Source of the DNA: Colwellia sp.
Lineage (GTDB): Bacteria > Pseudomonadota > Gammaproteobacteria > Enterobacterales > Alteromonadaceae
Reading direction: 5' to 3'
Length of the DNA stretch: 64,000 nucleotides
NCBI GenBank assembly: GCA_002733765.1
Contig: NVWU01000014.1
Span: forward strand, 4,608-68,607
The position numbers and the translations under genes are program-made. Below are positions 1,625-30,058 of this stretch, one piece after another (the first letter of the stretch is position 1; each line of letters starts with the position of its first letter). A model generated the notes under the pieces. That model worked only from the letters and a program-made list of their open reading frames with translations, ran no database searches and was not told the origin of the DNA.

Positions 1625-2149
1625 TTAATGGAATTGGTATAAATCCATCACAAGCGCTAGGTACATCCAGCCTTGACCTGTTCTGAGATACGTCACATCG
1701 CCTGCCCAAATTTGATTAGCCTGTTTGGGGTTAAAGTTCTGGTCAACGATATTATCGGCGACACTATGGCTATGTTTGCGCATCGTTGTCACTTTATAAG
1801 CAATACGCTGTTTAACTTGTAAACCAAGTTTATCCATCAAGCGAATAACTTTGTCACGGCCAACCTCAAAGCCTTCTTTACGCAGTTTTTTCATTAACTG
1901 CCTAGAGCCTAAACTTTGTCGACTTTCTCTAAATAAAGCTTTAGTGCGTCGGTACAGCATTAGCTCAGACTCGCTAATTATTTTAGCTGGGCGATTGACC
2001 CAAGCATAATAGCCGCTCCTGCTAATATTCATGACTGACTTCACACAGCTTTTTTACTGGAAAAATGCCTTCGTTCTTTTTAATAAAGTTAAATTTTACT
2101 TCATTTCTCTTGCGAAGAAGGCACTGGTGAATTCAAAGGGTCAGTGCAA
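1625..2149 (-). pseudogene. IS3-family remnant: truncated orfB, orfA tail and a terminal repeat
   Basis: The minus strand encodes the N-terminal half of an IS3 OrfB transposase, with the usual SRSGYYAW start region and QIWAGDVTYLRT carrying the first catalytic Asp. It ends abruptly after VMDLY at 1625, losing the rest of the DDE domain. Upstream, the frame KFNFIKKNEGIFPVKKLCEV (about 2037-2095) belongs to the same protein but is out of phase. A tandem AGTC at the junction looks like a 4-bp duplication causing the shift. The codons AFFAREMK-stop at 2096-2122 are the tail of orfA, whose body is missing. GGTCAGTGCAA at 2139-2149 resembles an IS3-type end. The element is dead. Confidence 0.8.
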
Positions 2150-2180
2150 CATCTTATAATTTATTAAAAATTAGGTTGTT

Positions 2181-3291
2181 ATGACTGACTTATCAAAACG
2201 TGGTTTAAATGATTTTGAACAAACTAAAAGTATGGAGTTTATGGCGTAAGGGGAAAACACTCAGTGAAATAGGTTTGATGGTTGATAGACATGCTGGTTC
2301 TATATTCGGTGTACTTAAATTACAAGATGGTATATCGCCAGTGCAACGAAAACGTCGAGAATCATTTCTTTCTCTAGAAGAATGTGAGGATATTTCTAGA
2401 GGATTAACCTCAGCTATTTCTATAAGAGAAATTGCTCGAAGGATAGCAATTTCACCCTCAACGGTAATCCGTGAAATTAAACGTAATGGCGGTATAATAA
2501 AGTACAGGGCTATAATTGCAGATAAAAATGCGCTACAGCGAGCACTAAGACCGAAACAATGCAAACTTCAAAAAGGTAATCCCCTTAGCAAATTAGTTGA
2601 AGCTAAATTGCTAAGGGAATTGCTCTCCTGAGCAAATAGCAGGCTGGTTAAAAATCACTTACTCATTGTCGCCTGAAATGCTTATTTCACATGAGACCAT
2701 TTATAAAACTCTGTTTGTACCATCTCGCTGTGTGTTTGATAAAACAGTCCTAACTCACCTTCGCTCAAAACGTAAATTAAGGCATGGTAAGTGCTCATCT
2801 AATAAGGGAGTTTGCAAAGGAATTATTGATGCTAAAATTATCCATGAAAGACCTAGTGAAATTGAAAATAGGACAACGTTCGGCCACTGGGAAGGTGATT
2901 TGATTTCAGGAAGTAATAATTCACATATAGCAACGTTAGTTGACCGTAAAACACGATATACAGCATTAGTTCAGGTTGATAGGACACGAAAAGTGTGGTT
3001 GATGCACTTATTCGAAAGTTTAATTCTTTCCCTAAGTCACTTAAAAACACATTAACTTGGAATAGAGGGATGGAATTGGCAGACCACAAGCACTTTACTA
3101 AATACACTGACGTTGATATTTATTTCTGTGATCCAAGTAGCCCTTGGCAAAGAGATACAAATGAAAATACAAATCGTTTATTACGACAATACTTTCCAAA
3201 AAAGACTAGCTTACGTGGCTTTGATCAAAATTATTTAGATAAAATAGCCAACAAATTAAATAAACTCCCTCGAAGTGTCCAATGCCGTTAA
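2181..3291 (+). pseudogene. IS30-family transposase, broken by several frameshifts
   Basis: Consecutive plus-strand frames encode one IS30 transposase. The ATG at 2181 starts MTDLSKRGLNDFEQ, which shifts near 2220 into the frame carrying LWRKGKTLSEIG and the helix-turn-helix SIREIARRIAISPSTVIREIKRNGG. The second shift is near 2628 (LLS/PEQIAGWLK). The DDE domain follows, with HETIYKTLF, GHWEGDLISG and LVDRKTRY. The third shift is near 2990, after which SPWQRDTNENTNRLLRQYFP supplies the C-terminal catalytic Glu region and the frame ends at 3291. All parts of a normal-length protein are present, so this is recent decay by small indels rather than truncation. Confidence 0.85.
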
Positions 3292-4456: not shown

Positions 4457-4906
4457 TTAGAATTTACCGATATTTTCTTGCACCCAGTCTTCAGCTTTAT
4501 CTTCAGCTTCTGAGTCAGTTTCACGGGCATCAATTAAAAATTTATCTACAATTTGCTGTGAATTCTTTGATAGCAAAAGTGTTTCCATAATTAAAGCGCC
4601 ATGACAATATGAATCAACATAACTAGAATCACCTAAACCGATAATAGCGAATTTTAAGGTACTTAGGTCTTTATTTGTATCGTCTACATTTTCGGCAAAG
4701 GTTTTAATGTTATCGGGTAACTCACCTGTGCCGGAGGTTGATGTACAAATCAACCATATTTGACCTTCAACTGGTAATTCATCGAACACGGGTTTTAAAT
4801 GTAGTTGTACATCATGTCCTGCTGTTTCTAATACATCAGCAGCGGCCTCGGCAACATACTCACTACTACCTAACATACTTCCCGCGATAACTTGAATTGA
4901 ACTCAT
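4457..4906 (-). CDS. Flavodoxin (MioC-like), candidate electron carrier of the box island
   Basis: This single-domain flavodoxin has about 149 residues. The FMN phosphate loop is near the N-terminus (AGSMLGSSEYVAE), and the isoalloxazine-binding loops are STSGTGELPDN and GLGDSSYVDSYCHGA. I start it at the ATG at 4906, preceded by GGAG at good spacing; a TTG lies one codon upstream. It follows boxD by about 30 bp on the same strand and precedes araC. Its presence in a benzoyl-CoA epoxidation island, together with a BoxA that lacks its ferredoxin domain, suggests it relays electrons to BoxB or from BoxA. That role is inference; MioC-like flavodoxins also serve other reductases. Confidence 0.85.
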   Translation of the reverse strand: MSSIQVIAGSMLGSSEYVAEAAADVLETAGHDVQLHLKPVFDELPVEGQIWLICTSTSGTGELPDNIKTFAENVDDTNKDLSTLKFAIIGLGDSSYVDSYCHGALIMETLLLSKNSQQIVDKFLIDARETDSEAEDKAEDWVQENIGKF

Positions 4907-4938
4907 CAACTTACTCCAATTTGAATAATTTATACTTG

Positions 4939-6510
4939 CTAAATTTCAACAGCATTAGCTGTTATCTTTGCTAACAAAGCAATATCGCCTTGAATAGCAC
5001 TACGTTGATGATAAAATTTCAACCCACGTAAACCACCTAATTCTTCACCTCCCCCCGCACGACCAGGACCACCATGAACACATTGTGGCATAACAATACC
5101 GTGTCCAGTATGACCATTAATCACAGCATCATTTACTACCATAACTCGACCATGGCAAGGTGCTAATGCTAACATTGCTGTTACCGCAAAATCATCACTG
5201 CCAGTAAATACCGAACTTGCTAACGAACCACCACCTAAAGCAGCTAATTGCCATGCTTGATCTACCGATTCATACGCCATCAGTGTCGCTACTGGACCAA
5301 AAACTTCAGTATCGTGTAAACGTTTAGCTTTTAATGGCTCATCACAACGTAATAAAGTAGGTTGTACAAAACATCCATCAACTAAATTACCGTCAACAAG
5401 GGTAAAATTATTATTATCACCAAAAACAACCTTTGCTTCTTTTTTTAATATTTCAAGACCTTTTAGTGCAGCGTTTTGTTGAGATTTATTCATTAAAGGC
5501 CCCATGCGAACACCTTCAACACTTGGATCACCAACAACAACTTTAGCTAATTTTGCTGATACGGCATCTGCTACTGCATCAATTAATGTAGTTGGCACAA
5601 GTACACGACGTATTGCCGTGCACTTTTGACCTGCTTTAGTGGTTATTTCTTTAGCCACTTCTTTAACAAAGCCGTTAAATAATGGGCTGCCTACTTCAAC
5701 GTCTTCTCCGAGTAGTGTCATATTGACGCTATCAGCTTCAACATTAAAACGTACTCCTGTTTTAATGACATTGGGATTACTACGCAATGTAGCTGCTGTG
5801 TCTGCAGAGCCAGTAAAGAATACTGCATCGCCTGCTTGAACGTGATCCATTAAATCATGTCCACCGCCACAAATGAGTGAAATACTTCCCACAGGAAAAA
5901 TATCAGCATCAACAACATCTTTAATCATTAAATAGGTCACTAAACATGAGGTTGTTGCTGGTTTAGCAAATACGGGTACACCTGAAAGTAGAGATACTGC
6001 GGCTTTTTCCCATAAGCCCCATGACGGAAAGTTAAAAGCATTAATATGAACAGCAACACCTTTTAACGGTGTTAACACGTGTATAGCTTGAAATGCTTTT
6101 TCACGTGATAAACGCTCCATACCAGGTTCACTGATATAATGTGCATCACCTAAATTTTTACCTATACCAGCATAATATTTTAAAGTTCCTACACCACCAT
6201 CAATATCAATCATGGCATCGACAGCAGTATTTGCTGAGTTACTTAAAGCAGCTTGTACGTATTTTTTACTATTGTTATTTAATACTTCAACTGCCGCATC
6301 AAGTAACTTAGCACGTTCCTCATACGTTAATTTTTGTAACGCGGGACTTGCATTTTTTCGAGCAAAGTTAAGCGCTGATGCTATATCAACTCCTTTTGAA
6401 CCTGCATAAGCAACAACTTCGTTATTAACAGGATTGTGTAATTCAATAGGTTGCCCTTTACCTGTAACCCATTTACCTTCAACATAATTTTGTAAATTCA
6501 ATTTAATCAC
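4939..6510 (-). CDS. boxD: 3,4-dehydroadipyl-CoA semialdehyde dehydrogenase BoxD
   Basis: This 523-residue aldehyde dehydrogenase is of the BoxD/PaaZ N-domain type. It should oxidise the 3,4-dehydroadipyl-CoA semialdehyde made by BoxC to 3,4-dehydroadipyl-CoA with NADP+. Seen in the sequence: the nucleotide-binding stretch HINAFNFPSWG, the active-site Glu region FNVEADSVN, and the catalytic Cys in TKAGQKCTAIRR. The C-terminus carries the PQCVHGGPGRAGGGEELGG stretch typical of PaaZ/BoxD-like enzymes. There is no hydratase domain, so the ring-opening half of PaaZ is absent, as expected for BoxD. It lies about 33 bp downstream of the thioesterase gene. Confidence 0.9.
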   Translation of the reverse strand: MIKLNLQNYVEGKWVTGKGQPIELHNPVNNEVVAYAGSKGVDIASALNFARKNASPALQKLTYEERAKLLDAAVEVLNNNSKKYVQAALSNSANTAVDAMIDIDGGVGTLKYYAGIGKNLGDAHYISEPGMERLSREKAFQAIHVLTPLKGVAVHINAFNFPSWGLWEKAAVSLLSGVPVFAKPATTSCLVTYLMIKDVVDADIFPVGSISLICGGGHDLMDHVQAGDAVFFTGSADTAATLRSNPNVIKTGVRFNVEADSVNMTLLGEDVEVGSPLFNGFVKEVAKEITTKAGQKCTAIRRVLVPTTLIDAVADAVSAKLAKVVVGDPSVEGVRMGPLMNKSQQNAALKGLEILKKEAKVVFGDNNNFTLVDGNLVDGCFVQPTLLRCDEPLKAKRLHDTEVFGPVATLMAYESVDQAWQLAALGGGSLASSVFTGSDDFAVTAMLALAPCHGRVMVVNDAVINGHTGHGIVMPQCVHGGPGRAGGGEELGGLRGLKFYHQRSAIQGDIALLAKITANAVEI

Positions 6511-6543
6511 CTTAAAAATTAGAAAGTTTTTATGCTTATTTCA

Positions 6544-7011
6544 TTAAGCATTAAGCTTGCAGTTTTTAACATAGTCTTCGATATACTTTCTTTGTATGTC
6601 TGGAATAGCGATAGCACCTTTCTTTTCAATACTAGTAAAACAAAAAATAAAATTACCAATAAATGAAGAAATCATTTCATTGGTTTCTTTGTCTTTTCGC
6701 TTACCCTTTAGCTGTAAAGTCACGGTAGAGCGACCAATTTTTACCACATTTACTTCAACTGCTAGCTTATCACCACCTTTTAATGGCCCTTTAAAATCAA
6801 TATCCATATGAACAACAGGTGAGCCCATACCACGCTCGGTGTTGATTTGAAACCAATCAAAATCTATAACGTCTCGAAACCAAACTTCCGCGGCTTCCAT
6901 ACAATAATCAGAAAATCTTGGTGTATACACAATTGCTGCAGCATCTGTGTCGCCAAACGGAATAATACGCCAATGTACATAAGGTTTTAGTTGTTCCATT
7001 TTTTGCTCCAT
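6544..7011 (-). CDS. Acyl-CoA thioesterase, 4-hydroxybenzoyl-CoA thioesterase family
   Basis: This hotdog-fold protein of about 155 residues has the FGDTDAAAIVYTPRFSDYCMEA segment that includes the catalytic Asp region of 4-hydroxybenzoyl-CoA thioesterases. Such enzymes in box clusters are thought to release CoA from dead-end or excess aroyl-CoA. I chose the ATG at 7011 over an upstream GTG at 7020. It is the first gene of the minus-strand operon read from the promoter at 7043-7072, followed by boxD, flavodoxin and araC. Confidence 0.85.
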   Translation of the reverse strand: MEQKMEQLKPYVHWRIIPFGDTDAAAIVYTPRFSDYCMEAAEVWFRDVIDFDWFQINTERGMGSPVVHMDIDFKGPLKGGDKLAVEVNVVKIGRSTVTLQLKGKRKDKETNEMISSFIGNFIFCFTSIEKKGAIAIPDIQRKYIEDYVKNCKLNA

Positions 7012-7042
7012 ACAACACACTCTACGTTAATACTTATACCTT

Positions 7043-7072
7043 ATTATATTGTAAATTTAAGACTAGAGTCAA
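7043..7072 (-). promoter_or_regulatory. Sigma-70 promoter of the thioesterase-boxD operon
   Basis: On the minus strand, TTGACT (7067-7072) is separated by 18 bp from TATAAT (7043-7048), a near-consensus promoter about 30 bp upstream of the thioesterase start. A TACTATAATTCAC sequence at 7084-7096, just upstream, resembles sequences at the bclA and boxC promoters and may be a shared regulator site. The divergent DUF4863 gene starts at 7151. Confidence 0.65.
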
Positions 7073-7150
7073 CACAAAAAGTGTACTATAATTCACGGAA
7101 CAAGGTAAAATAAGAATTATAAATCACAATCACATATATAAGGTAATAAA

Positions 7151-7642
7151 ATGAGTTATTTTTCATTAGATGATTTTTCATTAGACAACTATCAACATTT
7201 ATTGAGTAAAATCACGAGTGCTATTGGCAATAAACCGTTAGATCAAAATCTAGAAGACATGCTAAATAAAGATTTTTCATTCAATTCTGAACTATTTAAA
7301 GAAATTGAAACTGCATGTCATGCAGGTATTAAGTCAGGTGATTTATGTACTCATGAAGCGGGTGGTGTGAAGTTTGGCCGTGCTATTAAACCTTGTGATG
7401 CACTCAATAGCTATAGTGTTGACCTAGTTGATATGTCTGATGTTGTAGGTCCTCATCATAGCCATCCTGAAGGTGAAATTGACATGATCATGCCAATATC
7501 TAAAGAAGCAAAATTTGATGGACATGGAGCAGGTTGGTTAGTGTATGGCCCAGAAAGCGCTCATAAGCCTACTGTAAGCGAAGGTCAAGCCTTAGTTCTT
7601 TATTTACTACCTAATGGTTCAATAAAATTTACTCGTAAATAA
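7151..7642 (+). CDS. DUF4863 (4-hydroxylaminobenzoate lyase-like) family protein
   Basis: This 163-residue cupin-like protein has the GPHHSHPEGEIDMIMP metal-binding stretch (His and Glu ligands) and the GAGWLVYGPESAHKPTV region characteristic of the DUF4863/PnbB family. One member, PnbB, converts 4-hydroxylaminobenzoate to protocatechuate, and relatives are often found beside benzoyl-CoA genes. Its role in a box island is not established. It is the first of three plus-strand genes (DUF4863, enoyl-CoA hydratase, boxR). It starts at an ATG with AAGG about 8 nt upstream. Confidence 0.75.
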   Translation: MSYFSLDDFSLDNYQHLLSKITSAIGNKPLDQNLEDMLNKDFSFNSELFKEIETACHAGIKSGDLCTHEAGGVKFGRAIKPCDALNSYSVDLVDMSDVVGPHHSHPEGEIDMIMPISKEAKFDGHGAGWLVYGPESAHKPTVSEGQALVLYLLPNGSIKFTRK

Positions 7643-7680
7643 AAAAGCAAAAAGTAAAATCTATAATATTAGGAATCACT

Positions 7681-8496
7681 ATGAATTTAGCGCAATACCA
7701 AGAACGTTTTCCAACATTGAAGTTCGAACAAAATCATGAACATGTATTAGAAATAATTTTTGATACGGGTAACCCTATGAATACCATGAGTTCAGAAATG
7801 CATCATGATGTTGCTTATGTTTGGCGCGATATTGATTTAGATAAGTCAATACATTCTGTATTGGTACGAAGTATAGGAAAAGCTTTCTCCGCAGGTGGTG
7901 ATTTTGATTTAGTCAATAGGATGATTACCGATGATGAAGCATTACTTAATGTATGGAAAGAAGGAAAAGATCTTGTTTATAACATGATCAATTGCTCAAA
8001 ACCAATTATATCGGCAATACATGGACCGGCCGTAGGTGCAGGATTAGCCGTTGCATTACTTGCAGATATATCTATCGCTTCAAAAAATGCTCGTTTAATT
8101 GATAGCCATACAAAGCTAGGTGTAACAGCAGGTGATTTTAGTGTAATTATATGGCCATTATTATGTAGTTTAGCTAAAGCAAAATATTATTTGCTAACAG
8201 GAAGGTCTATCAACGGAGAAGAGGCTGAACGTATTGGTTTAGTATCAATGTGTGTTGATCAAGATGAGCTTTATGATATTGCCTTAAGTACAGCACAAGA
8301 AATTGCTAATAATAGCCCAACGGCTGTTCGATGGACAAAACATGCATTAAATAATTGGTTACGTATGATGGGACCAAGTTTCGACCATTCACTTGCATTG
8401 GAAATGTTAGGTTTTAGACTACCTGATATTAATGAGGGTTTAGCATCTATGAAAAATAAAGATTCTGCCAATTTTTCTAAGAATTGTCCCATTTAA
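7681..8496 (+). CDS. Enoyl-CoA hydratase/isomerase family protein
   Basis: This 271-residue crotonase-fold protein has oxyanion-hole segments FSAGGDFDL and GPAVGAGLAVALLADISIA. The usual catalytic Glu positions of hydratases are not conserved; the second segment reads KLGVTAGDFSVIIWPLL, which suggests a non-hydratase activity such as isomerase or thioesterase. It lies 38 bp after the DUF4863 gene and upstream of boxR. In the box pathway it could act on dehydroadipyl-CoA or on a substituted aroyl-CoA, but the substrate cannot be read from the sequence. Confidence 0.8.
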   Translation: MNLAQYQERFPTLKFEQNHEHVLEIIFDTGNPMNTMSSEMHHDVAYVWRDIDLDKSIHSVLVRSIGKAFSAGGDFDLVNRMITDDEALLNVWKEGKDLVYNMINCSKPIISAIHGPAVGAGLAVALLADISIASKNARLIDSHTKLGVTAGDFSVIIWPLLCSLAKAKYYLLTGRSINGEEAERIGLVSMCVDQDELYDIALSTAQEIANNSPTAVRWTKHALNNWLRMMGPSFDHSLALEMLGFRLPDINEGLASMKNKDSANFSKNCPI

Positions 8497-8572
8497 ATAT
8501 ATGATTCAGATTAAATAATCAGGCATAATACAAACAATAATTTAGAAAATAAATAACTTGGCTGCTTGGAAT

Positions 8573-9472
8573 ATGAACACGAAAATGAATAGTGATAATG
8601 AAAGTGATCTTTTCTTACAACAAGCTGGAGACTTGATTAGAGGAATGAGAGCAATTCGAGGCATGACACGAAAAATGTTAGCTAAAGATTCTAAAGTTTC
8701 AGAGAGATATTTGGCTAATTTAGAGCAAGGAAAAGGAAACATTTCAATTAGTTTATTACGTCAAGTTTCTCGTGCTTTGAATGTGTCAGTGGCAGAATTA
8801 ATACCTTCACCGATGAAACAAACTCCTGAACAAAAATTAATCAGTGAATTTGTAAATGGTTTAACTCAACGAGATCAAAAGATAGCCCTTGATATATTAC
8901 ATTATAAATTTTCTTCAGTTAGCCCACAAAATAAAACCCGTATCGCTCTAATTGGATTAAGAGGTGCTGGTAAAACTACCTTAGGTAGTTTATTACAAGA
9001 ACGAGAAAATATACCATTTATTCGATTAGCTCAAGAAATTGAAAACTTAGGTGGTATGCCTATCGCTGAAATTTTTTCATTATCCGGTCAACAAGGTTAT
9101 AGAAGATTAGAAGAAAAAGCATTAACTCAAACAATTAGTATTTATGATTGTTGTTGTATTGAAACGGGAGGAAGTATTGTTTCTCAATTAAAAGATTTCA
9201 ATTTAATGTTAACAACTTGCATGGTTATTTGGATCAAAACATCACCAACAGAACATATGGAGAGGGTAATAGCTCAAGGTGATATGCGACCAATGACTAA
9301 CAATATTGATGCAATGGCAGATTTAGAACAAATTTTAATAGAAAGAGCACCATTTTATGAAAAAGCACATGCAATATTAGATACTTCAAATAAAACTGTT
9401 CAAGAATCGTTTAGTGAATTATTAACATTAATTAAAGAACACCATAAGCTTAAAGATTCAGTAATTAACTAG
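8573..9472 (+). CDS. boxR: Benzoyl-CoA-responsive regulator BoxR
   Basis: This fusion protein has about 300 residues. The N-terminal XRE-type helix-turn-helix (about 15-70, TRKMLAKDSKVSERYLANLEQGKGNIS) is followed by a shikimate-kinase-like domain with Walker A GLRGAGKTT near residue 130. This architecture defines BzdR/BoxR regulators, which repress aerobic benzoate genes until benzoyl-CoA binds the kinase-like domain. The open frame could begin at a TTG at 8558, but the ATG at 8573 is more likely. The stop codon overlaps the start of a terminator hairpin at 9471. Its targets are probably the boxC and bclA promoters. Confidence 0.9.
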   Translation: MNTKMNSDNESDLFLQQAGDLIRGMRAIRGMTRKMLAKDSKVSERYLANLEQGKGNISISLLRQVSRALNVSVAELIPSPMKQTPEQKLISEFVNGLTQRDQKIALDILHYKFSSVSPQNKTRIALIGLRGAGKTTLGSLLQERENIPFIRLAQEIENLGGMPIAEIFSLSGQQGYRRLEEKALTQTISIYDCCCIETGGSIVSQLKDFNLMLTTCMVIWIKTSPTEHMERVIAQGDMRPMTNNIDAMADLEQILIERAPFYEKAHAILDTSNKTVQESFSELLTLIKEHHKLKDSVIN

Positions 9473-9501
9473 GATGTCCATTAAATATTAATGGACATCC
9501 T
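9471..9501. terminator. Hairpin terminator between boxR and bclA
   Basis: AGGATGTCCATTAA (9471-9484), a 3-nt loop, and its exact complement (9488-9501) form a 14-bp stem that begins at the boxR stop codon. It sits between convergent genes, so it can end transcription from both sides although the T-run is weak. Confidence 0.65.
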
Positions 9502-9610
9502 TATGAATACTTCTTACGAGTAACATGCTTACTCCAAAGAAACATTAAATAATCAATCTGTATAACTTATATAAATGGGTTACATAAATTGATTATTTTC
9601 GCATAGAAGA

Positions 9611-11248
9611 TTAACTTTTATTTGTACTTTGCTTTACCATTTCTTTTAATACAAAATGTTGTATCTTACCTGTTTTAGTACGGGGTAACTCATCAATGAA
9701 TTTAATTGAACGTGGATATTTATAAGGAGCAGCTTGTTGTTTAGCGAAATCCTGAATGTCTTTTACCAATACATCACTGGGTAAAAATGATTCATTTAAT
9801 ACAATGTAAGCTCTAACAATATTTCCGCGCGCTGTATTGGGAATACCAATTACGGCACACTCAGCGACTGATGGATGTCGACTAATAGTTGCTTCAACAT
9901 CTGGTGCTGCAATATTATAACCAGAAGAGATAATCATACCATCAGTACGAGCTTGATACCAAAAGAAGCCATTTTCATCCATTTTTGCTGTATCACCAGT
10001 TATATTCCAACCATTTTTGACATAGTTTTTTTGCCTTTTATCATTTAAGTAAAGACAGCCTGTTGGACCACGTACTGCTAACAACCCTACTTGATTAATG
10101 CCTAGTTCTTGCCCATTGTCATCTAAGATGCATACTTCATACCCTTGTACCGGTTTTCCTAATGAACCAATAGGATCGGTTTTATTTTGAACAGATAAAA
10201 ATATATGCAATAATTCTGTAGACCCTATACCATCCATTAAACGTATTCCTGCCTTCTCTACCCACCCTTCAGAGACATAAGTTGGTAATGCTTCCCCTGC
10301 AGAAAAGCATTTCGTTAAAGAATCAAGTTTGTTTTTATCTATTTCATTCTCATAAAAATTTAATAGTGCTTTGTATGCTGTAGGAGCTGTAAATAAAATA
10401 CTTATTTTAAATTCAGCAATTGCCTCAGCAAATGATTGTGGATTAACATTTTCTAATAAAACTACCGTGGCGCGTGCATATAAAGGAAAAAGTAATAAAG
10501 CCCCCAAACCATATACAAAACCTAACGGTGGAGTGCCTGAAAAAACATCATTAGATGTTGCTTTTACCACATGAGTAGCAAAAGTTTCACAGACAGCCAT
10601 AACTGCATTATGGGAATGCATAGCACCTTTGGGTTTACCCGTTGTACCTGAGGTAAAACCAATTAAGGCAATATCATCATTTAAAGGTTGATGTGCTACA
10701 AAGTTTACTGATTTTTTGGCCATACTTGCTTCTAAACTAAGAGGAGCAGAGACTTCAGTATTAAAATAAAGAGCTTGTAAGTTTGTTAACTCACTTTGTG
10801 TTAACTTTAATTCTTTTTTAAGTCTAACGTCACATAAAGCGATAGAGGCTCCGCTTCGTGATGCAATTGTTGTTATTTCTTTTGCTCGTAACATTGCTAT
10901 TGTAGTAACAACAATACCACCGGCTTTTATTACGGCAAGCCAACAAGCAGCTAACATTGGAGTGTTAGCAGAACGAAGTAAAACTCTATTTCCTGGAAGT
11001 AAACCTAAATCATCCACCAATACATTGGCTATTTGGTTAACTTTATTTAGTAATTCTTGATAAGTCCATTTTTCGTTAAGTGAACAAATAGCTATTTTTT
11101 TACCATAGCCTTCACTAACCGCATTATCTAATAAGGAAGTTACACAATTAATAGTGGTGTTATTAGTATTTATGAAATTTGGCCAGTCATTCTTTTGTGG
11201 CATATTTTCAAAGATAAAATTATCTGTTGTTTTATTGTTCAGGCTCAT
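9611..11248 (-). CDS. bclA: Benzoate-CoA ligase
   Basis: This 545-residue AMP-forming acyl-CoA synthetase activates benzoate to benzoyl-CoA with ATP, the first step of the box pathway. The adenylation signature GFTSGTTGKPKGAMHSH lies near residues 198-215. Other visible motifs are GIGSTE, the hinge-proximal GDTAKMDENGFFWYQARTDG, and the C-terminal catalytic Lys in PRTKTGKIQ. The length and the SSGYNIAAPDVE motif fit the benzoate-CoA ligase family rather than phenylacetate-CoA ligase. It is a single gene on the minus strand, convergent with boxR and downstream of the NUDIX gene. Confidence 0.88.
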   Translation of the reverse strand: MSLNNKTTDNFIFENMPQKNDWPNFINTNNTTINCVTSLLDNAVSEGYGKKIAICSLNEKWTYQELLNKVNQIANVLVDDLGLLPGNRVLLRSANTPMLAACWLAVIKAGGIVVTTIAMLRAKEITTIASRSGASIALCDVRLKKELKLTQSELTNLQALYFNTEVSAPLSLEASMAKKSVNFVAHQPLNDDIALIGFTSGTTGKPKGAMHSHNAVMAVCETFATHVVKATSNDVFSGTPPLGFVYGLGALLLFPLYARATVVLLENVNPQSFAEAIAEFKISILFTAPTAYKALLNFYENEIDKNKLDSLTKCFSAGEALPTYVSEGWVEKAGIRLMDGIGSTELLHIFLSVQNKTDPIGSLGKPVQGYEVCILDDNGQELGINQVGLLAVRGPTGCLYLNDKRQKNYVKNGWNITGDTAKMDENGFFWYQARTDGMIISSGYNIAAPDVEATISRHPSVAECAVIGIPNTARGNIVRAYIVLNESFLPSDVLVKDIQDFAKQQAAPYKYPRSIKFIDELPRTKTGKIQHFVLKEMVKQSTNKS

Positions 11249-11329
11249 ATTTTCCTCTTTATTAATTTTATATTCGTTACAAAAAAATTTCCTCTTTAAG
11301 TACAGGTAGACTTAAAATGATATTTTTTG

Positions 11330-11371
11330 TTCTTATAATAGTGAATTAGTCAAAAACAAGAACTATAGTGC
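11330..11371 (-). promoter_or_regulatory. Control region of bclA with CACTAT motifs
   Basis: Read on the minus strand, GCACTATAG (11363-11371) and TTCACTAT (11338-11345) lie within 30 bp and overlap a plausible -35/-10 pair (TTGTTT, 16 bp, TATAAG). The same CACTATA core recurs upstream of boxC, so this is a candidate BoxR operator. The assignment to BoxR is inferred. Confidence 0.4.
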
Positions 11372-11458
11372 ATTATTTTGGTGTGTTTGTGAATTATTTA
11401 TCATAAGTAATATGACATATTCAATAACTTTTTTAGATTGTACCTTGCGGAAATTAGT

Positions 11459-12145
11459 TTATATGTCTTTAATATAGTGCCATTGCTCATTTAACAATAG
11501 CAAACGATGATGTTTACCTTTTATGTTTTGATCACACTTTTGATAACCTGAGTCACCTTTATATAGGGAACAAAATCCATTTTTAAGCTTGATGGTCTTA
11601 GGTGTATAGTAAGTAGGATTACGACGATACATTGCTAATGCTTCAACAACACTTTTACAATTGGAAAGTTCAGATAAAGTTACGAAGGTTGGTGCCATGA
11701 TTTTAATTTTTTTATCATTAAAATCCAGTAAAGCATCTGAAGGTTTGTACCATTGATATTGAATTATTTCGCTGTTATCAATACAAATATCAACATTTTC
11801 ATTAATCTCTGTCACATAATACCATGTGGAAAATCTAGTTTTCATCTCTTGAGGGCTAGTCCAATGTGAGGTGAATATTAATTTATTTTCATTTAAAACT
11901 AAGCCTGCTTCTTCTTTTGATTCACGTATTGCCGCTATACGAGCTGCCACATGTATATTATTTATTCCTGCATTATAATCCATTTTGTTAATCTTACCTC
12001 CAGGAAATACCCAATAACCGCTACCAAACTTAAGCTGTAAAGATCGGCGAAGCATTAAAACTTGTAAACCTTTATCACTGTCACAAACAATAATAACAGT
12101 AGCTGAAGGTATTAATTTTTTTTTATGATTTTTTTTTGTATACAT
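11459..12145 (-). CDS. NUDIX hydrolase, NUDT19-like
   Basis: This 228-residue protein has a NUDIX domain covering most of the chain. The motif is of the long-insert type, VFPGGKINKMD, then about 15 residues, then AAIRESKEEAGL, resembling NUDT19-like proteins that hydrolyse CoA or acyl-CoA. Its place between bclA and boxC suggests it may limit CoA or benzoyl-CoA pools or remove a damaged CoA ester. The C-terminal region (HHRLLLLNEQWHYI) is less typical. The frame is intact from the ATG at 12145, and it is divergent from boxC. Confidence 0.75.
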   Translation of the reverse strand: MYTKKNHKKKLIPSATVIIVCDSDKGLQVLMLRRSLQLKFGSGYWVFPGGKINKMDYNAGINNIHVAARIAAIRESKEEAGLVLNENKLIFTSHWTSPQEMKTRFSTWYYVTEINENVDICIDNSEIIQYQWYKPSDALLDFNDKKIKIMAPTFVTLSELSNCKSVVEALAMYRRNPTYYTPKTIKLKNGFCSLYKGDSGYQKCDQNIKGKHHRLLLLNEQWHYIKDI

Positions 12146-12213
12146 ATTTTATATTACTCGGTAAGTATTTTATTGTTTGGCACCTGATGAATGTTGACTC
12201 TTAAACTGAAGAC

Positions 12214-12380
12214 GCACTATAAGTCATCTTTATTGATCTGAAATCAACATTTTTAATATAGTTAATACAAACACAATGTAAAATAATTTTAATGATGTTA
12301 GCACTATAAGACATAAAATATGATTTTATCACACCACTATGAAATATAAAGCTTGTATAATTGCTATTATGCATTATAAT
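12214..12380 (+). promoter_or_regulatory. boxC promoter with repeated GCACTATAAG motif
   Basis: Two identical GCACTATAAG sequences lie at 12214-12223 and 12301-12310, and a further CACTAT at 12335-12340. The likely promoter is TTGTAT (12353-12358), 16 bp, TATAAT (12375-12380), giving a leader of about 50 nt before boxC. TATAATTCAC spanning the -10 recurs at 7087-7096. This 291-bp space between the divergent NUDIX and boxC genes contains no other gene. Confidence 0.5.
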
Positions 12381-12436
12381 TCACTTATCGTATTCTGTAG
12401 CACACATATTGTAATATTATAAAGGTGAATTAAGGC

Positions 12437-14113
12437 ATGATTGATTTTCAAACCAACCCAGAAAGTTATAACCATTGGAAACTTAAATTTGATGGCTCTG
12501 TTGCTACATTAAGCATGGATGTTAATCCAGATAAAACATTAGTAGAGGGTTATAAACTAAAACTCAATTCATACGACTTAGGCGTAGATATTGAATTATA
12601 TGATGCGGTTCAACGTTTGAGATTTGAACATCCGGAAGTAAAAACAGTCATTTTTAACTCAGCAAACGAAAAAGTTTTTTGTGCTGGCGCTAATATCAAC
12701 ATGTTAAGTGTTTCTAGCCATGCACATAAAGTTAACTTTTGTAAATTTACTAATGAAACTCGTAACTCTATTGAAGATGCAAGTGAATTTTCTAAACAAC
12801 GTTATTTATGTGCTGTTAAAGGGGTTGCTGCTGGTGGTGGTTATGAATTAGCCCTAGCAACAGACCACATTATTTTGTCAGATGATGGTTCTTCTGCCGT
12901 TTCTTTACCAGAAGTACCTTTATTAGCCGTATTACCAGGTACAGGTGGTTTAACACGTGTAGTTGACAAACGTAAAGTTCGTCGTGATCGTGCTGATATA
13001 TTTTGTTCACTTGAAGACGGTATTCTAGGTCAAAAAGCTGTTGATTGGCGTTTAGTCGATGAAGTAGCTCCAGGGTCTAAATTTGATGCTGCGGTTCAAC
13101 ATCGTGCACTTGAAATGGCTAAAACATCAGATCGTCCAGATGAAGAAATAGGTGTTAAATTTACTCCACTTAATCGTAAAATTACCGATGATACAATTAC
13201 CTATGATTATGTTGATGTAAAAATTGAGCGTAATAAAAGTATTGCTACTATAACGGTAAAGTCTCCTAATAGTGATGACTTAGCCGGTTCTACAGCTAAC
13301 TTGGCTGGTTTAACACTTGACGAAGCATTAAGCGCGGGTGCAGATTTTTGGGCATTAGCGGCATGTCGTCAATTAGATGATGCTATTTTACATTTACGTG
13401 CTAATGAAAAAGAAATGGGTACATTAATATTAAAAACTGAAGGTGATTCAGCTACCGTACTTGCTTATGATGATTTTGTTAATAGAAATCAAAGTAACTG
13501 GTTTATGCGCGAAATTTCACTCTACTGGCGTCGTACGTTAAAGCGTATTGATTTATCTTCACGTACTATCTTTACCTACGTAGATCAAGGTAGTTGTTTT
13601 GTAGGTATGTTAGCTGAATTCTTATTCGCCGCTGACCGTGCCTACATGCTAGAAGATCAATTTGATGAAGATTGCCGTCCAGCTCCAAGTATTGTATTAA
13701 CTGCATCAAACTTTGGATCTTTCCAAATGTCTAATGGTATTACTCGATTAGAGACTCGTTTCTTAGGTGAGCCAGAGAGTGTCGATATTTGCAAAACTAA
13801 AATAGGTAAAAAATTAACAGCTGAAGATTGTAATAAACTTGGTTTAGTGACTGATATTTATGATTCATTAGATTGGAATGATGAATTAAGAATAATGGTT
13901 GAAGAACGTGTAAGTTACTCTCCAGATTGTCTTACCGGTATGGAAGCAAACTTACGTTTTGCAGGCCCTGAAACAATGGAAACTAAAATATTTGGTCGTT
14001 TGACCGCATGGCAAAACTGGATCTTCCAACGTCCTAACGCTGTTGCAGAAGGTGGCGCACTGAAACTTTATGGTACAGGTGTTCGTGCTAAGTACGATAT
14101 GAACCGTGTTTAA
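12437..14113 (+). CDS. boxC: Benzoyl-CoA-dihydrodiol lyase / 2,3-epoxybenzoyl-CoA dihydrolase BoxC
   Basis: BoxC is a crotonase-superfamily enzyme that hydrolytically opens 2,3-epoxybenzoyl-CoA, giving 3,4-dehydroadipyl-CoA semialdehyde plus formate. The 558-residue length matches the family. Visible segments include the oxyanion-hole pair FCAGANINML and GVAAGGGYELALATDHI in the first half, followed by the second, diverged crotonase-like half (SCFVGMLAEFLFAADRAYML). It opens the plus-strand box operon, with AAAGG about 9 nt before the ATG. The formate it releases is the probable reason for the fds operon downstream. Confidence 0.93.
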   Translation: MIDFQTNPESYNHWKLKFDGSVATLSMDVNPDKTLVEGYKLKLNSYDLGVDIELYDAVQRLRFEHPEVKTVIFNSANEKVFCAGANINMLSVSSHAHKVNFCKFTNETRNSIEDASEFSKQRYLCAVKGVAAGGGYELALATDHIILSDDGSSAVSLPEVPLLAVLPGTGGLTRVVDKRKVRRDRADIFCSLEDGILGQKAVDWRLVDEVAPGSKFDAAVQHRALEMAKTSDRPDEEIGVKFTPLNRKITDDTITYDYVDVKIERNKSIATITVKSPNSDDLAGSTANLAGLTLDEALSAGADFWALAACRQLDDAILHLRANEKEMGTLILKTEGDSATVLAYDDFVNRNQSNWFMREISLYWRRTLKRIDLSSRTIFTYVDQGSCFVGMLAEFLFAADRAYMLEDQFDEDCRPAPSIVLTASNFGSFQMSNGITRLETRFLGEPESVDICKTKIGKKLTAEDCNKLGLVTDIYDSLDWNDELRIMVEERVSYSPDCLTGMEANLRFAGPETMETKIFGRLTAWQNWIFQRPNAVAEGGALKLYGTGVRAKYDMNRV

Positions 14114-14197
14114 GTAATTATTACCCTACTATCCGTAAATTCCTTACGATAAATTGGTTTTTAATACAGATAAAAATAGTAACCAAAGGAAAAAACT

Positions 14198-15670
14198 ATG
14201 AGTGATTTAACAGAAGATGTACTAGGTGAAACAGTAGTTGAAATTAACTATGATGAGCTTATACCTAATAATGTTGACTTAATGAATGATAAACAATTAA
14301 AAAAGGCATTAGAAAGTTGGCAACCAAAGTACGTTGATTGGTGGAATGAAGCAGGCCCTGTAAATACTAAAGATTTTGAAGTTTATCTACGTACTGCTGT
14401 AGGCGTTGACCCTAAAGGTTGGGCTAAATTTGGTCATGTTAAGATGCCTGACTATCGTTGGGGAATTTTATTAGCTCCCAAAGAAGAAGGCCGTACTATT
14501 CCTTTTGGCAAACATAAAGGCGAGCCTGTATGGCAAGAAGTGCCAGGTGAATACCGAGCATTGTTGCGTCGTCTTATTATTATTCAAGGTGATACTGAAC
14601 CAGCGTCGGTTGAGCAACAACGTATTTTAAGTGCAACTGCTCCTTCTTTATATGACATGCGTAACTTGTTTCAAGTCAACGTTGAAGAAGGTCGTCATCT
14701 ATGGGCAATGGTTTATCTACTTGTTAAATACTTTGGTCGTGAAGGTCGCCAAGATGCAGAAGGTATGCTTGAACGTCGTTCAGCTGATGAAGATAAGCCG
14801 CGTATTTTGGGTGCATTTAATGAAGCTACAGATGATTGGTTATCTTTCTTTATGTTCACTTACTTCACAGACCGTGATGGTAAAATGCAATTAGCGTCTT
14901 TAGCTGAATCAGGCTTTGATCCGTTATCTCGCACATGTCGTTTTATGTTAACCGAAGAAGCGCATCACATGTTTGTAGGTGAAACAGGTGTTGGTCGTGT
15001 TATTCAACGTACTTGTGAAGCAATGGAAGAAGCAGGAATCACTAATGTTAATGATATTGAAGCAGTTCGTAAACTAGGTGTTATTGATTTACCAACATTA
15101 CAGAAAAAAATTAACTTTCATGTATCTGTTACCTCTGATTTATTTGGTGCTGAAGTGTCAACTAATGGTGCTTCTGCTTTTATCGCAGGTATCAAAGGTC
15201 GATTTAACGAAACTAAAATTGATGATGATCATCAATTAAATGATGACAATTACACAGTAACCCGTGCCGTTGACGGCAAGTTGGTTGATGTTGAAGAAAC
15301 AGCCCATAACGCAATTAACTCACGTTTATTAGATGATTATCATGATGATGCTGCTGGCGGGTTAGGTCGTTGGAATAAAGTAATTAAACGTGCAGGTTTT
15401 GATTTTAAGTTAACGCTTCCTTATAAAGGTTTTTCACGTAAAATTGGTACTTTTTCTGAAGATTTTATCACTCCAGATGCTCAAGTTGTAACAGAAGCAG
15501 AATGGAATGCTAAAAAAGACGAGTGGTTATGTACTGATTCTGATAACGCCTTTATTCAATCATTAATGGTTCCGTGTAAAGAAAAAGGCAAATATGCTGG
15601 TTGGATTGCAGCACCTCGCGTTGGTATTAATAACCAACCTGAAGACTTTGAATATGTAAAACTTTTCTAG
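14198..15670 (+). CDS. boxB: Benzoyl-CoA 2,3-epoxidase oxygenase component BoxB
   Basis: BoxB is the diiron oxygenase that epoxidises benzoyl-CoA with O2 and electrons from the BoxA reductase. The protein has 490 residues, close to the usual size. Diiron ligands can be seen in the helices FQVNVEEGRHLWAMV (EX2H type) and FMLTEEAHHMFVG. It follows boxC by 84 bp with a strong AAAGGA site. A perfect hairpin after its stop separates it from boxA. No frameshift or missing ligand was noticed. Confidence 0.93.
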   Translation: MSDLTEDVLGETVVEINYDELIPNNVDLMNDKQLKKALESWQPKYVDWWNEAGPVNTKDFEVYLRTAVGVDPKGWAKFGHVKMPDYRWGILLAPKEEGRTIPFGKHKGEPVWQEVPGEYRALLRRLIIIQGDTEPASVEQQRILSATAPSLYDMRNLFQVNVEEGRHLWAMVYLLVKYFGREGRQDAEGMLERRSADEDKPRILGAFNEATDDWLSFFMFTYFTDRDGKMQLASLAESGFDPLSRTCRFMLTEEAHHMFVGETGVGRVIQRTCEAMEEAGITNVNDIEAVRKLGVIDLPTLQKKINFHVSVTSDLFGAEVSTNGASAFIAGIKGRFNETKIDDDHQLNDDNYTVTRAVDGKLVDVEETAHNAINSRLLDDYHDDAAGGLGRWNKVIKRAGFDFKLTLPYKGFSRKIGTFSEDFITPDAQVVTEAEWNAKKDEWLCTDSDNAFIQSLMVPCKEKGKYAGWIAAPRVGINNQPEDFEYVKLF

Positions 15671-15693
15671 TAAATAAGTTATATATTTCAATA

Positions 15694-15725
15694 ACAGTAC
15701 TAATATCAATAGATATTAGTACTGT
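15694..15725 (+). terminator. Intra-operon hairpin between boxB and boxA
   Basis: ACAGTACTAATATC (15694-15707), loop AATA, and its exact complement (15712-15725) are followed by CTCCATTTTT. The 14-bp stem could act as a partial terminator or as a 3' stabiliser of the boxCB message, lowering BoxA relative to BoxB and BoxC. Confidence 0.55.
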
Positions 15726-15755
15726 CTCCATTTTTAAAAAATTTAATGGTTATCT

Positions 15756-16634
15756 ATGTCTATACCTCACGTTATACCTCCAAAAACCGCAAAAAAACCT
15801 GAAATCAATCTTTACGATAGAAAAAATACGGTTTCTGCAACGTTAGTTTCTAATGATCGTATTACTTCTCCTGATGTTGAGTCTGAAATTCATCATATTG
15901 TTTTAGATTTTGGTAAACAAAATTTCCCCGTATTGGAAGGACAAAATATTGGCATTATTCCTCCTGGCACAAATAAAAGAGGGCGACCTCATATCGCTCG
16001 TTTATATTCTATTGCCAGTGCCCGCGACGGAGAGTGGCGTAATACCAATACATTAGCTTTAACGGTTAAGCGAGTAACGTATGAAGAAAATGGTGAAACA
16101 AAATCAGGTTTAGCCTCTAGTTATGTTTGTGATTTAAGTATTGGTGATGAAGTGCAAGTAACAGGTCCTTTTGGCGATACGTTCTTAATGCCAAATAATC
16201 CAGATGCCAATATTATTATGATTTGTACGGGCACAGGCGCTGCACCTTTTAGAGCCATGACTGAGCGTCGTCGCCGTCAACCTGACGTTCCTGGCCAGCT
16301 AAAACTTTACTTTGGTGCTCGTACTGAAGGCGAACTTCCCTATTTTGATTCATTAAATAAATTATCAAATAAACTGATTAATAAACAATTAGTATTTTCT
16401 CGTGAAGCGGGTAAACCTAAGAAATATGTTCAACATCATATGCTTGATGAAAGCAATGAGTTAGCAGAATTATTAAAATCACCTGAAACCTATGTATATA
16501 TTTGTGGTTTAAGGGATATGGAACTGGGTGTAGAAGAAGCTTTTGATGAAATTTGTTCTGATGCAGATTTAAATTGGGAAACATTAAAGAACGAAATGAA
16601 AAGTTCTGGCCGTTATCACGTAGAAACTTACTAA
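15756..16634 (+). CDS. boxA: BoxA reductase, short form without the ferredoxin domain
   Basis: This FAD/NADPH reductase component of the benzoyl-CoA epoxidase has 292 residues. It has the FNR-like fold: FAD-binding ARLYSIAS near residues 80-87, GPFGDTF, the NAD(P) motif CTGTGAAPFRAM, and the C-terminal YICGLRDME and YHVETY. The described Azoarcus BoxA is a fusion with an N-terminal two-cluster ferredoxin domain. That domain is missing here, the region before residue 20 is only a short linker, and no room exists upstream for it. An external carrier, perhaps the flavodoxin at 4457-4906, is needed or BoxB is reduced directly. The identity as BoxA rests on context and on similarity of the C-terminal part. 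Confidence 0.88.
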   Translation: MSIPHVIPPKTAKKPEINLYDRKNTVSATLVSNDRITSPDVESEIHHIVLDFGKQNFPVLEGQNIGIIPPGTNKRGRPHIARLYSIASARDGEWRNTNTLALTVKRVTYEENGETKSGLASSYVCDLSIGDEVQVTGPFGDTFLMPNNPDANIIMICTGTGAAPFRAMTERRRRQPDVPGQLKLYFGARTEGELPYFDSLNKLSNKLINKQLVFSREAGKPKKYVQHHMLDESNELAELLKSPETYVYICGLRDMELGVEEAFDEICSDADLNWETLKNEMKSSGRYHVETY

Positions 16635-29429: not shown

Positions 29430-30058
29430 GGCCTGTTGATCTTTCGTGATTAGATTTTGAACTAAAAAGGCAATCTCGACTAATTATTTAGCCAAAAACA
29501 GAAATACGAGATCACCATGCCCCGAACAATGCTTAACGATGAGCACTGGTCAAAACTAATCGTTATAATGCTTAAAGATAGAGTGTATAACAAATCCACG
29601 CATAGAAATGGCAAAAGTGTTGCAGGCAACACAACTAAAATTCATATGGCGGTAGATAGTTACGGCTTACCGATTGAGTTTTACATTACAGGCGGTGAAG
29701 TTCATGACAGTAAAGCCGCACCAACACTTATAGATATGCTACCGAGTGCGGATTATGTCATTGCAGATAGAGGCTATGATAGTGAAGCACTTAGAGAGCA
29801 AATACGTGATAAACATGCTATTCCAGTTATCCCGAGAAAGAAAAACTCTAAAGTAGGTAATGCTGATATCGATTGGTGTTTATATAAATACCGACTCTTA
29901 GTTGAAAATGTATTTGCTCGCCTCAAGCAGTACAGGGGCATAGCGACAAGATATGATAAATTAAAAAGAAACTATGAGAGTACGCTCACATTAGAATGCT
30001 CCATGATATGGCTACCAATGTAAGTGGACAAATTATGAACTTAAAAGATAAACAGACC
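29430..30058 (+). mobile_element. IS5-family element, internally deleted
   Basis: Imperfect terminal inverted repeats are seen: GGCCTGTTGATCTTT at 29430-29444 and, at 30044-30058, the complement of GGTCTGTTTATCTTT (13 of 15 bases agree). Both ends are flanked by CTA (27-29 bp past 29400 and 30059-30061), a 3-bp target duplication. The element is only 629 bp, shorter than usual because the transposase gene has an internal deletion. The intact ends could still be mobilised by a related element. Confidence 0.75.
29517..30023 (+). pseudogene. IS5-family (IS427-like) transposase with internal deletion
   Basis: A 168-residue frame starts with MPRTMLNDEHWSKL as in IS427-group transposases, then jumps after KDRVYNKSTHRN straight to GKSVAGNTTKIHMAVDSYG. 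The intervening region with the first catalytic Asp is lost. The second Asp (ADRGYDSE) and the Glu region (VENVFARLKQYRG) are retained. The protein cannot be an active transposase. Confidence 0.85.

Follow-up and report, generated by a model that had tools for sequence, protein, structure and literature searches.

The closest described counterpart of the system considered here is BoxAB of Azoarcus evansii. A review (PMC4498308) describes its BoxA as an NADPH-specific protein with FAD and two [4Fe-4S] clusters, far scarcer than BoxB, required in minor amounts only and acting by transient contact. Electrons in such a full-length BoxA would pass from NADPH to FAD, then to the clusters and on to BoxB, the diiron benzoyl-CoA epoxidase. 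We analysed a 64,000-nucleotide stretch of a Colwellia sp. genome (GCA_002733765.1, contig NVWU01000014.1, positions 4,608 to 68,607; hereafter the window) that carries an island of box genes. The island shares with A. evansii the BoxB and BoxC families, the FAD/NADPH reductase core of BoxA and the pathway (PMC4498308), whereas the N-terminal two-[4Fe-4S] domain that is fused to the A. evansii BoxA is gone, and the island encodes a separate flavodoxin.

Three further systems invite comparison. In the P450cin system, according to PMC9687028, electrons run from NADPH through the FAD of cindoxin reductase and the FMN of cindoxin, a short flavodoxin, to a monooxygenase. Cindoxin is found among the sequence and fold matches of the window flavodoxin, whereas the oxygenase is a P450 rather than a diiron epoxidase. 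E. coli MioC (PDB 2HNA/2HNB) is both the best solved-structure match by sequence and, as a family, the best NCBIfam model; the window flavodoxin nonetheless falls below the NCBIfam cut-off and outside the MioC clade of the host's family, and lies behind boxD instead of beside mnmG. CysJ and cytochrome P450 reductase combine a flavodoxin with a ferredoxin-NADP reductase (FNR) domain, and both window parts match CysJ; there the domains form a single fused chain, whereas the window encodes them in two genes separated by about 11 kb.

We propose, with a probability of roughly 0.55, that in this locus electrons would run from NADPH through the shortened BoxA and the flavodoxin to BoxB. The elements concerned are the following, in window coordinates:

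14198-15670, plus strand: boxB, diiron benzoyl-CoA 2,3-epoxidase (TIGR03225, 867 bits, above the cut-off of 499.1)
15671-15755, plus strand: boxB-boxA gap, 85 nt, its sequence holding no ferredoxin domain
15694-15725, plus strand: 14-bp perfect hairpin with a T-rich tail, terminator- or attenuator-like (minimum free energy -20.7, z -7.1)
15756-16634, plus strand: ferredoxin-less BoxA of 292 residues, a stand-alone FAD/NADPH reductase (FNR) half (TIGR03224 positions 124-411 of 411)
4457-4906 (or 4909), minus strand: MioC-like short flavodoxin (PF00258, 75 bits; NF006531, 143 bits)

Residues 7-292 of the window BoxA align with positions 124-411 of the 411 of TIGR03224, at 397 bits and thus below the curated cut-off of 459.2. 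As judged from this alignment and from the gap sequence, the N-terminal ferredoxin domain with its two [4Fe-4S] clusters is absent; the 85 bp upstream, which hold the hairpin, offer no space for the approximately 115 residues of such a domain. Both statements had been made in an earlier note on this DNA, and both stand. The C-terminal FAD/NADPH reductase core, which is FNR-related, is present by model alignment and by predicted fold. The AlphaFold model is a single FNR-like protein with a predicted local distance difference test score (pLDDT) of 81, low at residues 1-13 and 91-96, and the 50 Foldseek matches listed, of 1461 with an E-value of 10 or better, are ferredoxin-NADP reductases (query TM-score 0.83-0.87). 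An alignment was made with 68 distinct BoxA, selected for aligning to the N-terminus of a full-length BoxA. In it the short protein retains RLYSIAS, GTGAAPFRAM and the C-terminal ETY, together with the invariant S215, R216 and Y224; from FNR work, we take S-R...Y to bind the 2'-phosphate of NADPH and the last tyrosine to stack on FAD. All 68 comparison proteins contain CxxCxxCxxxC within the first 90 residues, with two motifs found in 60/68 by the pattern used. The short BoxA deviates at 9/88 core positions conserved at 95% or more, the deviation at residue 2 being probably an alignment-edge effect; in leave-one-out comparisons, the number of such deviations among full-length BoxA has a median of 0 and reaches 9 at most. 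Its N99T, G198D and D227H are the aligned residues of the cyanobacterial FNR 8hfq, and it may be speculated that these positions once touched the lost ferredoxin. Chance or artefact was rejected as the cause of the short form, given the clean start of the reading frame, the intact core and the size of the gap. By family membership the predicted window reductase is a BoxA-derived FNR and not a standard BoxA.

The BoxA core tree (70 rows, two of them the window's sequence; built by a quick method) places the window protein as sister to that of L066 (SH-aLRT 85), within a 20-row set at 97. The short gene, which adjoins boxB, thus groups among BoxA, and because it is nested among full-length forms the loss of the ferredoxin domain is derived; a primitive ferredoxin-less BoxA was rejected on the same ground. 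In a BoxB tree of 48 rows, having or lacking a full-length BoxA requires nine changes, at least seven of them forced by starred branches, and within the five-row BoxB clade to which the window belongs all three states of BoxA (full, short, absent) occur. The hairpin in front of the gene could lower boxA transcription. In L066, the nearest relative, the gap is longer and only mildly structured (z -1.9), on which account a conserved boxB-boxA hairpin was discarded. Gaps of 200-360 nt between boxB and boxA in several other loci also give large folding energies, calculated without a shuffle control.

The flavodoxin scores 75 bits with PF00258, against a Pfam cut-off of 25, and has a short-chain flavodoxin fold. 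Its start is an ATG at 4906 after GGAG, a TTG at 4909 being also possible. The frame begins 29-32 bp behind boxD as the last gene of thioesterase-boxD-flavodoxin, so that the stand-alone flavodoxin placed there by the earlier note is indeed present. No minus-strand terminator-like site was found between boxD and the flavodoxin, and the three genes probably form one transcript. The predicted structure (pLDDT 95.8) matches PA3435, YqcA and cindoxin in fold; by sequence, the nearest solved chain is that of E. coli MioC, with cindoxin matched too. At 143 bits, below the cut-off of 158, with its best NCBIfam model (MioC, NF006531), the predicted protein is by membership MioC-like rather than MioC. 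It deviates at 7/37 conserved MioC positions, compared with 0-5 for 18 others in leave-one-out comparisons. The deviations include a change from THGAG to TSGTG in the 50s loop, presumably the FMN loop, and one residue is inserted in what we take to be the 90s loop. The flavodoxin is predicted to bind FMN; the loops are present, with changes at conserved residues in them.

BoxA, having shed the fused 2[4Fe-4S] ferredoxin, survives here as a stand-alone NADPH:FAD reductase of plant-type FNR fold, and in the proposed mechanism the MioC-like flavodoxin of the boxD unit would substitute for the missing domain. Electrons would pass from NADPH to the FAD of BoxA, the FMN of the flavodoxin and the diiron centre of BoxB, which would then epoxidise benzoyl-CoA; the flavodoxin would be reduced by the short BoxA and would itself reduce BoxB. 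Once the clusters are gone, transfer from FAD to the diiron site probably requires a one-electron carrier. Reductases of the FNR type pair with flavodoxins, and NrdI, itself flavodoxin-like, partners a dimetal protein. These precedents, with the P450cin chain, lead us to favour the flavodoxin, a host ferredoxin being the main rival.

An independent parallel is provided by loci that we label Rhodobacteraceae-type after the named Roseicyclus loci among them. In the Roseicyclus loci L077 (flavodoxin at 11502-11957) and L096, a flavodoxin lies directly behind boxB and no BoxA is found. The box-linked flavodoxin is the sole PF00258 match in the genomes G463 (that of L096) and G487, neither of which has a TIGR03224 match anywhere. 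The L077 genome has one further weak PF00258 match, and a search of it for BoxA at 1e-15 or better found none. A search with the L077 flavodoxin against 345 genomes of the G463 family found 25 with matches at 1e-8 or better, 18 through flavodoxins of their own and seven through CysJ-like frames only. The five best (G463, G1349, G1525, G1582 and G1429) all have boxB-flavodoxin-thioesterase-boxR. With G487 and L077, the order boxC-boxB-flavodoxin-thioesterase-boxR is thus seen at seven loci (L077, L096, L167 and L258-L261) from at least five genus groups. No BoxA was found within the 12-21 kb examined at these loci, nor in the three cases where the whole genome was searched. Given that 19/80 scanned loci read boxB-boxA-thioesterase-boxR, the flavodoxin occupies exactly the place of boxA in all seven. 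These operons resemble the window in having a box-linked flavodoxin whose best NCBIfam model is MioC (two scanned). They differ in lacking a BoxA match over the stretches examined and in the lineage of the flavodoxin: with L206 and L233, the boxB-linked flavodoxins form a starred nine-row group far from that of the window. The genome of L124, from which L206 derives, is boxB-positive, has no BoxA match and carries this flavodoxin unlinked to boxB. The aligned Rhodobacteraceae-type flavodoxins also have the extra 90s-loop residue, and since they have it whether boxB-linked or not, the insertion is no signature of box function. We consider it an even bet that a free flavodoxin has replaced the fused iron-sulphur donor of BoxB on at least two independent occasions. 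The exchange would be complete in the Rhodobacteraceae lineage, with the flavodoxin gene substituted for boxA in the operon, and half-way in the gammaproteobacterium of the window, whose BoxA is retained as an FNR and complemented by a MioC-derived flavodoxin; BoxB would accordingly be a diiron oxygenase with exchangeable donors.

A plasmid search with the Roseicyclus flavodoxin gave 88 records, all below 60% identity (40 of the 88 listed). Related flavodoxins of the same family at L234-L245 stand, by eye, beside a GltD/adrenodoxin-reductase-like FAD protein in 10/12 cases (two scanned), and in several cases another conserved protein and an IclR-type regulator are encoded there as well; they apparently represent an uncharacterised redox module.

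The ferredoxin-less BoxA is rare. A phylum-wide draw of 398 genomes contained 35 boxB-positive ones: 21 have a BoxA above the cut-off, one (the host) has the short form and 13 have none, meaning either no TIGR03224 match or distant matches below 100 bits only. The 13 comprise nine genomes of one genus (g173, labelled Bradyrhizobium-type after the Bradyrhizobium locus L101; cf. G612), G463 and G487 of another, G546 and G423. In further draws of 369 and 289 genomes, with matches listed down to 1e-60, there were 4 and 10 above-cut-off BoxA respectively, all full length, four of these matches falling in genomes already counted. Besides the window's own, one match in these two draws, that of G1192, stays below the cut-off; it is cut, yet has its ferredoxin part. 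Another 16 genomes gave a full BoxA in five and a BoxA split across two contigs in one. At 80 boxB loci, BoxA adjoins boxB in 41, does not in 37 despite at least 1.5 kb of sequence after boxB, and two loci end too soon. Neither the genome searches nor the neighbourhoods of boxB in the 80 loci contained an intact ferredoxin-less BoxA other than that of the window. One of the 41 adjoining BoxA (L130) is interrupted by a shift of frame; three others (L067, L111 and L145) run off the ends of their contigs, yet begin with the ferredoxin domain. For L070, L072 and L135, loci without an adjoining BoxA, one is found on another contig of the genome.

FNR-only proteins with TIGR03224 scores of 128-142 bits occur in three Sedimenticola genomes, two of which lack BoxA, and were rejected as BoxA for being too distant. 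The two are those of Sedimenticola hydrogenitrophicus (L073 and L074), which have boxB and, elsewhere, the FNR-like protein (140-142 bits, TIGR03224 positions 142-406); the L072 genome has a BoxA in addition to its FNR-like protein of 128 bits. In a plasmid search for BoxA (40 of 235 records listed, N-termini examined for two matches), the BoxA of a Cupriavidus KK10 plasmid was considered as a second short form and proved full length, and on a Sulfitobacter plasmid an IS6 element truncates what is left of a boxA, which does not adjoin boxB.

Whether BoxA loss goes with a flavodoxin was assessed by scoring as stand-alone any frame of less than 310 residues that matches PF00258 over nearly the whole profile at 60 bits or more. 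In the 35 boxB-positive genomes, such a flavodoxin is present in 5/14 without a full BoxA (0/9 Bradyrhizobium-type, 5/5 others) versus 3/21 with one. Of the 80 loci, 2/37 without an adjoining BoxA have a flavodoxin near boxB, as against 0/41 with one. The formal test used 48 tree rows from the 51 genomes searched for both (the 35 boxB-positive, G194 aside, plus the 16 more), after exclusion of G592, G349 and G507 for want of a boxB sequence. G592, outside the test, has both BoxA and flavodoxin. G1349, G1525, G1582 and G1429 were ineligible, having been found through their flavodoxin. Two rows, L066 (0.9 Mb) and L069 (2.1 Mb), represent clearly incomplete genomes, and the flavodoxin scored as present for L097 is a 173-residue frame of the longer type.

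Several observations weigh against the proposed chain. The short BoxA is carried by one genome only. In the 48 rows the flavodoxin is present in 8/24 without a full BoxA versus 2/24 with it, which is not significant (Fisher p 0.07); the seven independent pairs, of which 3.2 on average agree with the expectation and none goes against it, give a median p of 0.25. The co-variation of BoxA form and flavodoxin that the earlier note put forward as a check thus did not reach significance. The nearest boxB relatives, with a full BoxA (L066, L067, L071) or none (L068, L069), show no flavodoxin in the stretch examined. The window flavodoxin itself is about 10 kb from boxB, beside neither boxA nor boxB, and belongs to a broad gammaproteobacterial MioC lineage with a stand-alone match in 37/38 congeners, a few of these matches being partial. 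Its isoelectric point of 4.15, with 5.9 for the short BoxA against a median of 7.9 for full-length cores, lends no support to docking of the two. Finally, BoxA and a stand-alone flavodoxin are both lacking in all nine Bradyrhizobium-type genomes and in those of L068 and L095. The earlier note's suggestion that the flavodoxin feeds BoxB is made plausible by the seven Rhodobacteraceae-type loci with a flavodoxin at the place of boxA; for the window, with its distant gene of MioC lineage, it is unproven.

The BoxA-less genomes without a stand-alone flavodoxin imply that other donors of BoxB exist. They speak for the leading alternative, in which the short BoxA is a general ferredoxin-NADP reductase using a ferredoxin encoded elsewhere and the flavodoxin is incidental: with no full-length stand-alone flavodoxin, the nine Bradyrhizobium-type genomes and those of L068 and L095 must use an unlinked donor, and the short BoxA has a canonical FNR fold. 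A stand-alone BoxA-type ferredoxin elsewhere in the host genome was looked for and rejected. Of five TIGR03224 matches just one (C19) covers the N-terminal domain, and from its sequence and neighbours we take it to be RnfB; this single match speaks against the ferredoxin route, other ferredoxin types not having been searched for. A host ferredoxin would also leave the flavodoxin behind boxD unexplained, and we regard this alternative as unlikely, though it is a serious one. As observations apart, Bradyrhizobium-type boxBC clusters are found at L006-L013, L016 and the Bradyrhizobium loci among L086-L141, and the BoxA-less box locus L095 encodes at 6252-7286, beside boxR, a thioredoxin-reductase-like flavoprotein, possibly a TrxR-type FNR.

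Still less probable is a housekeeping MioC, relocated into the island or acquired with it and unrelated to BoxB, with BoxB supplied otherwise and the short BoxA decaying. The draft host assembly has four PF00258 matches: a 613-residue frame, two on other contigs and the window flavodoxin. Presumably the first is of CysJ type and the two on other contigs of FldA and FldB types, leaving the window flavodoxin as the sole MioC-like match, which may thus have to fill the MioC role. Decay of BoxA would fit its 9/88 deviations, and a boxA remnant is known from the Sulfitobacter plasmid; the short BoxA is, however, intact in those catalytic motifs that were checked. Across the order 118/148 genomes match the window flavodoxin, some by CysJ-type proteins only, and the one congener without a stand-alone MioC match (G1284) is 76% complete. 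In all five neighbourhoods examined (three congeners, two other members of the family) the relatives' MioC adjoins what we take to be mnmG, with presumed mnmE on the other side in two. The window gene lies instead within a catabolic unit, between boxD and an araC-type gene. The earlier note would have yielded to a flavodoxin conserved at this place in box-negative relatives; what was found in 5/5 is a MioC beside mnmG and outside any box island, so that this refutation as phrased does not apply, boxB having been tested in one congener. In the tree, the window flavodoxin is sister to, and outside, a 13-row starred clade of family and genus MioC, and its identity to the MioC of nine congeners is 44-47%, against 60-98% among those. 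Such divergence and position, together with the altered conserved residues, speak against a mere relocation and suggest a flavodoxin either acquired with the island or rapidly diverged.

Direct, carrier-free reduction of BoxB by the FAD of the short BoxA is improbable: some two-component oxygenases do use a flavoprotein reductase directly, and the minor amounts and transient contact of BoxA would suit it, but above-cut-off BoxA in the genomes found are all full length, so that the cluster domain is kept, and the seven loci have a flavodoxin and no bare reductase at the place of boxA.

The flavodoxin chain would make the window a variant of the known benzoyl-CoA epoxidation system. The absence of BoxA has been noticed before: a genome survey classed box clusters without BoxA as incomplete and the absence as an impediment (PMC10803450). 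In the literature searched, no paper was found to connect a flavodoxin with BoxB, two papers that use both terms doing so separately; passages of a flavodoxin paper (PMC6716667) contain nothing on box genes. Should flavodoxins be able to feed BoxB, some BoxA-less clusters may function, which would change genome-based prediction of benzoate degradation. It would also mean that an iron-free donor can replace an iron-sulphur one in a diiron epoxidase, a change that might suit iron-poor sea water. With the boxB-flavodoxin operons, three or four proteins would suffice to address the donor question directly.

The host genome, a draft assembly of 4.05 Mb in 41 contigs with a completeness of 98.9%, is the only boxB-positive one of 295 drawn from its order, which makes the island an oddity in its lineage. 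The island consists of an AraC-type gene, the minus-strand thioesterase-boxD-flavodoxin unit, a PnbB-family gene, an enoyl-CoA hydratase, boxR, a benzoate-CoA ligase-type gene, boxC-boxB-boxA (12437-16634) and beta-oxidation genes. Its further features are:

4939-6510, minus strand: boxD (NF008868, 721 bits)
6544-7020, minus strand: hotdog thioesterase, first gene of the thioesterase-boxD-flavodoxin unit (PF13279/PF03061)
7043-7072, minus strand: putative sigma-70-like promoter (11/12) before that unit, a consensus match only, in a region with no excess over shuffles
8558-9472, plus strand: boxR-type regulator with a shikimate-kinase-like domain (NF006015, 361 bits)
9611-11248, minus strand: benzoate-CoA ligase-family protein (TIGR02262, 325 bits, below the cut-off of 375)
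12437-14113, plus strand: boxC (TIGR03222, 889 bits)

The PnbB-family gene (PF16155, 7151-7642) also occurs in box loci L066, L084, L087, L093, L099 and L121. Transposase-like reading frames, recognised from their translations, flank the box and formate-dehydrogenase genes at 1625-3055 and 29517-30023, and are consistent with a mobile island.

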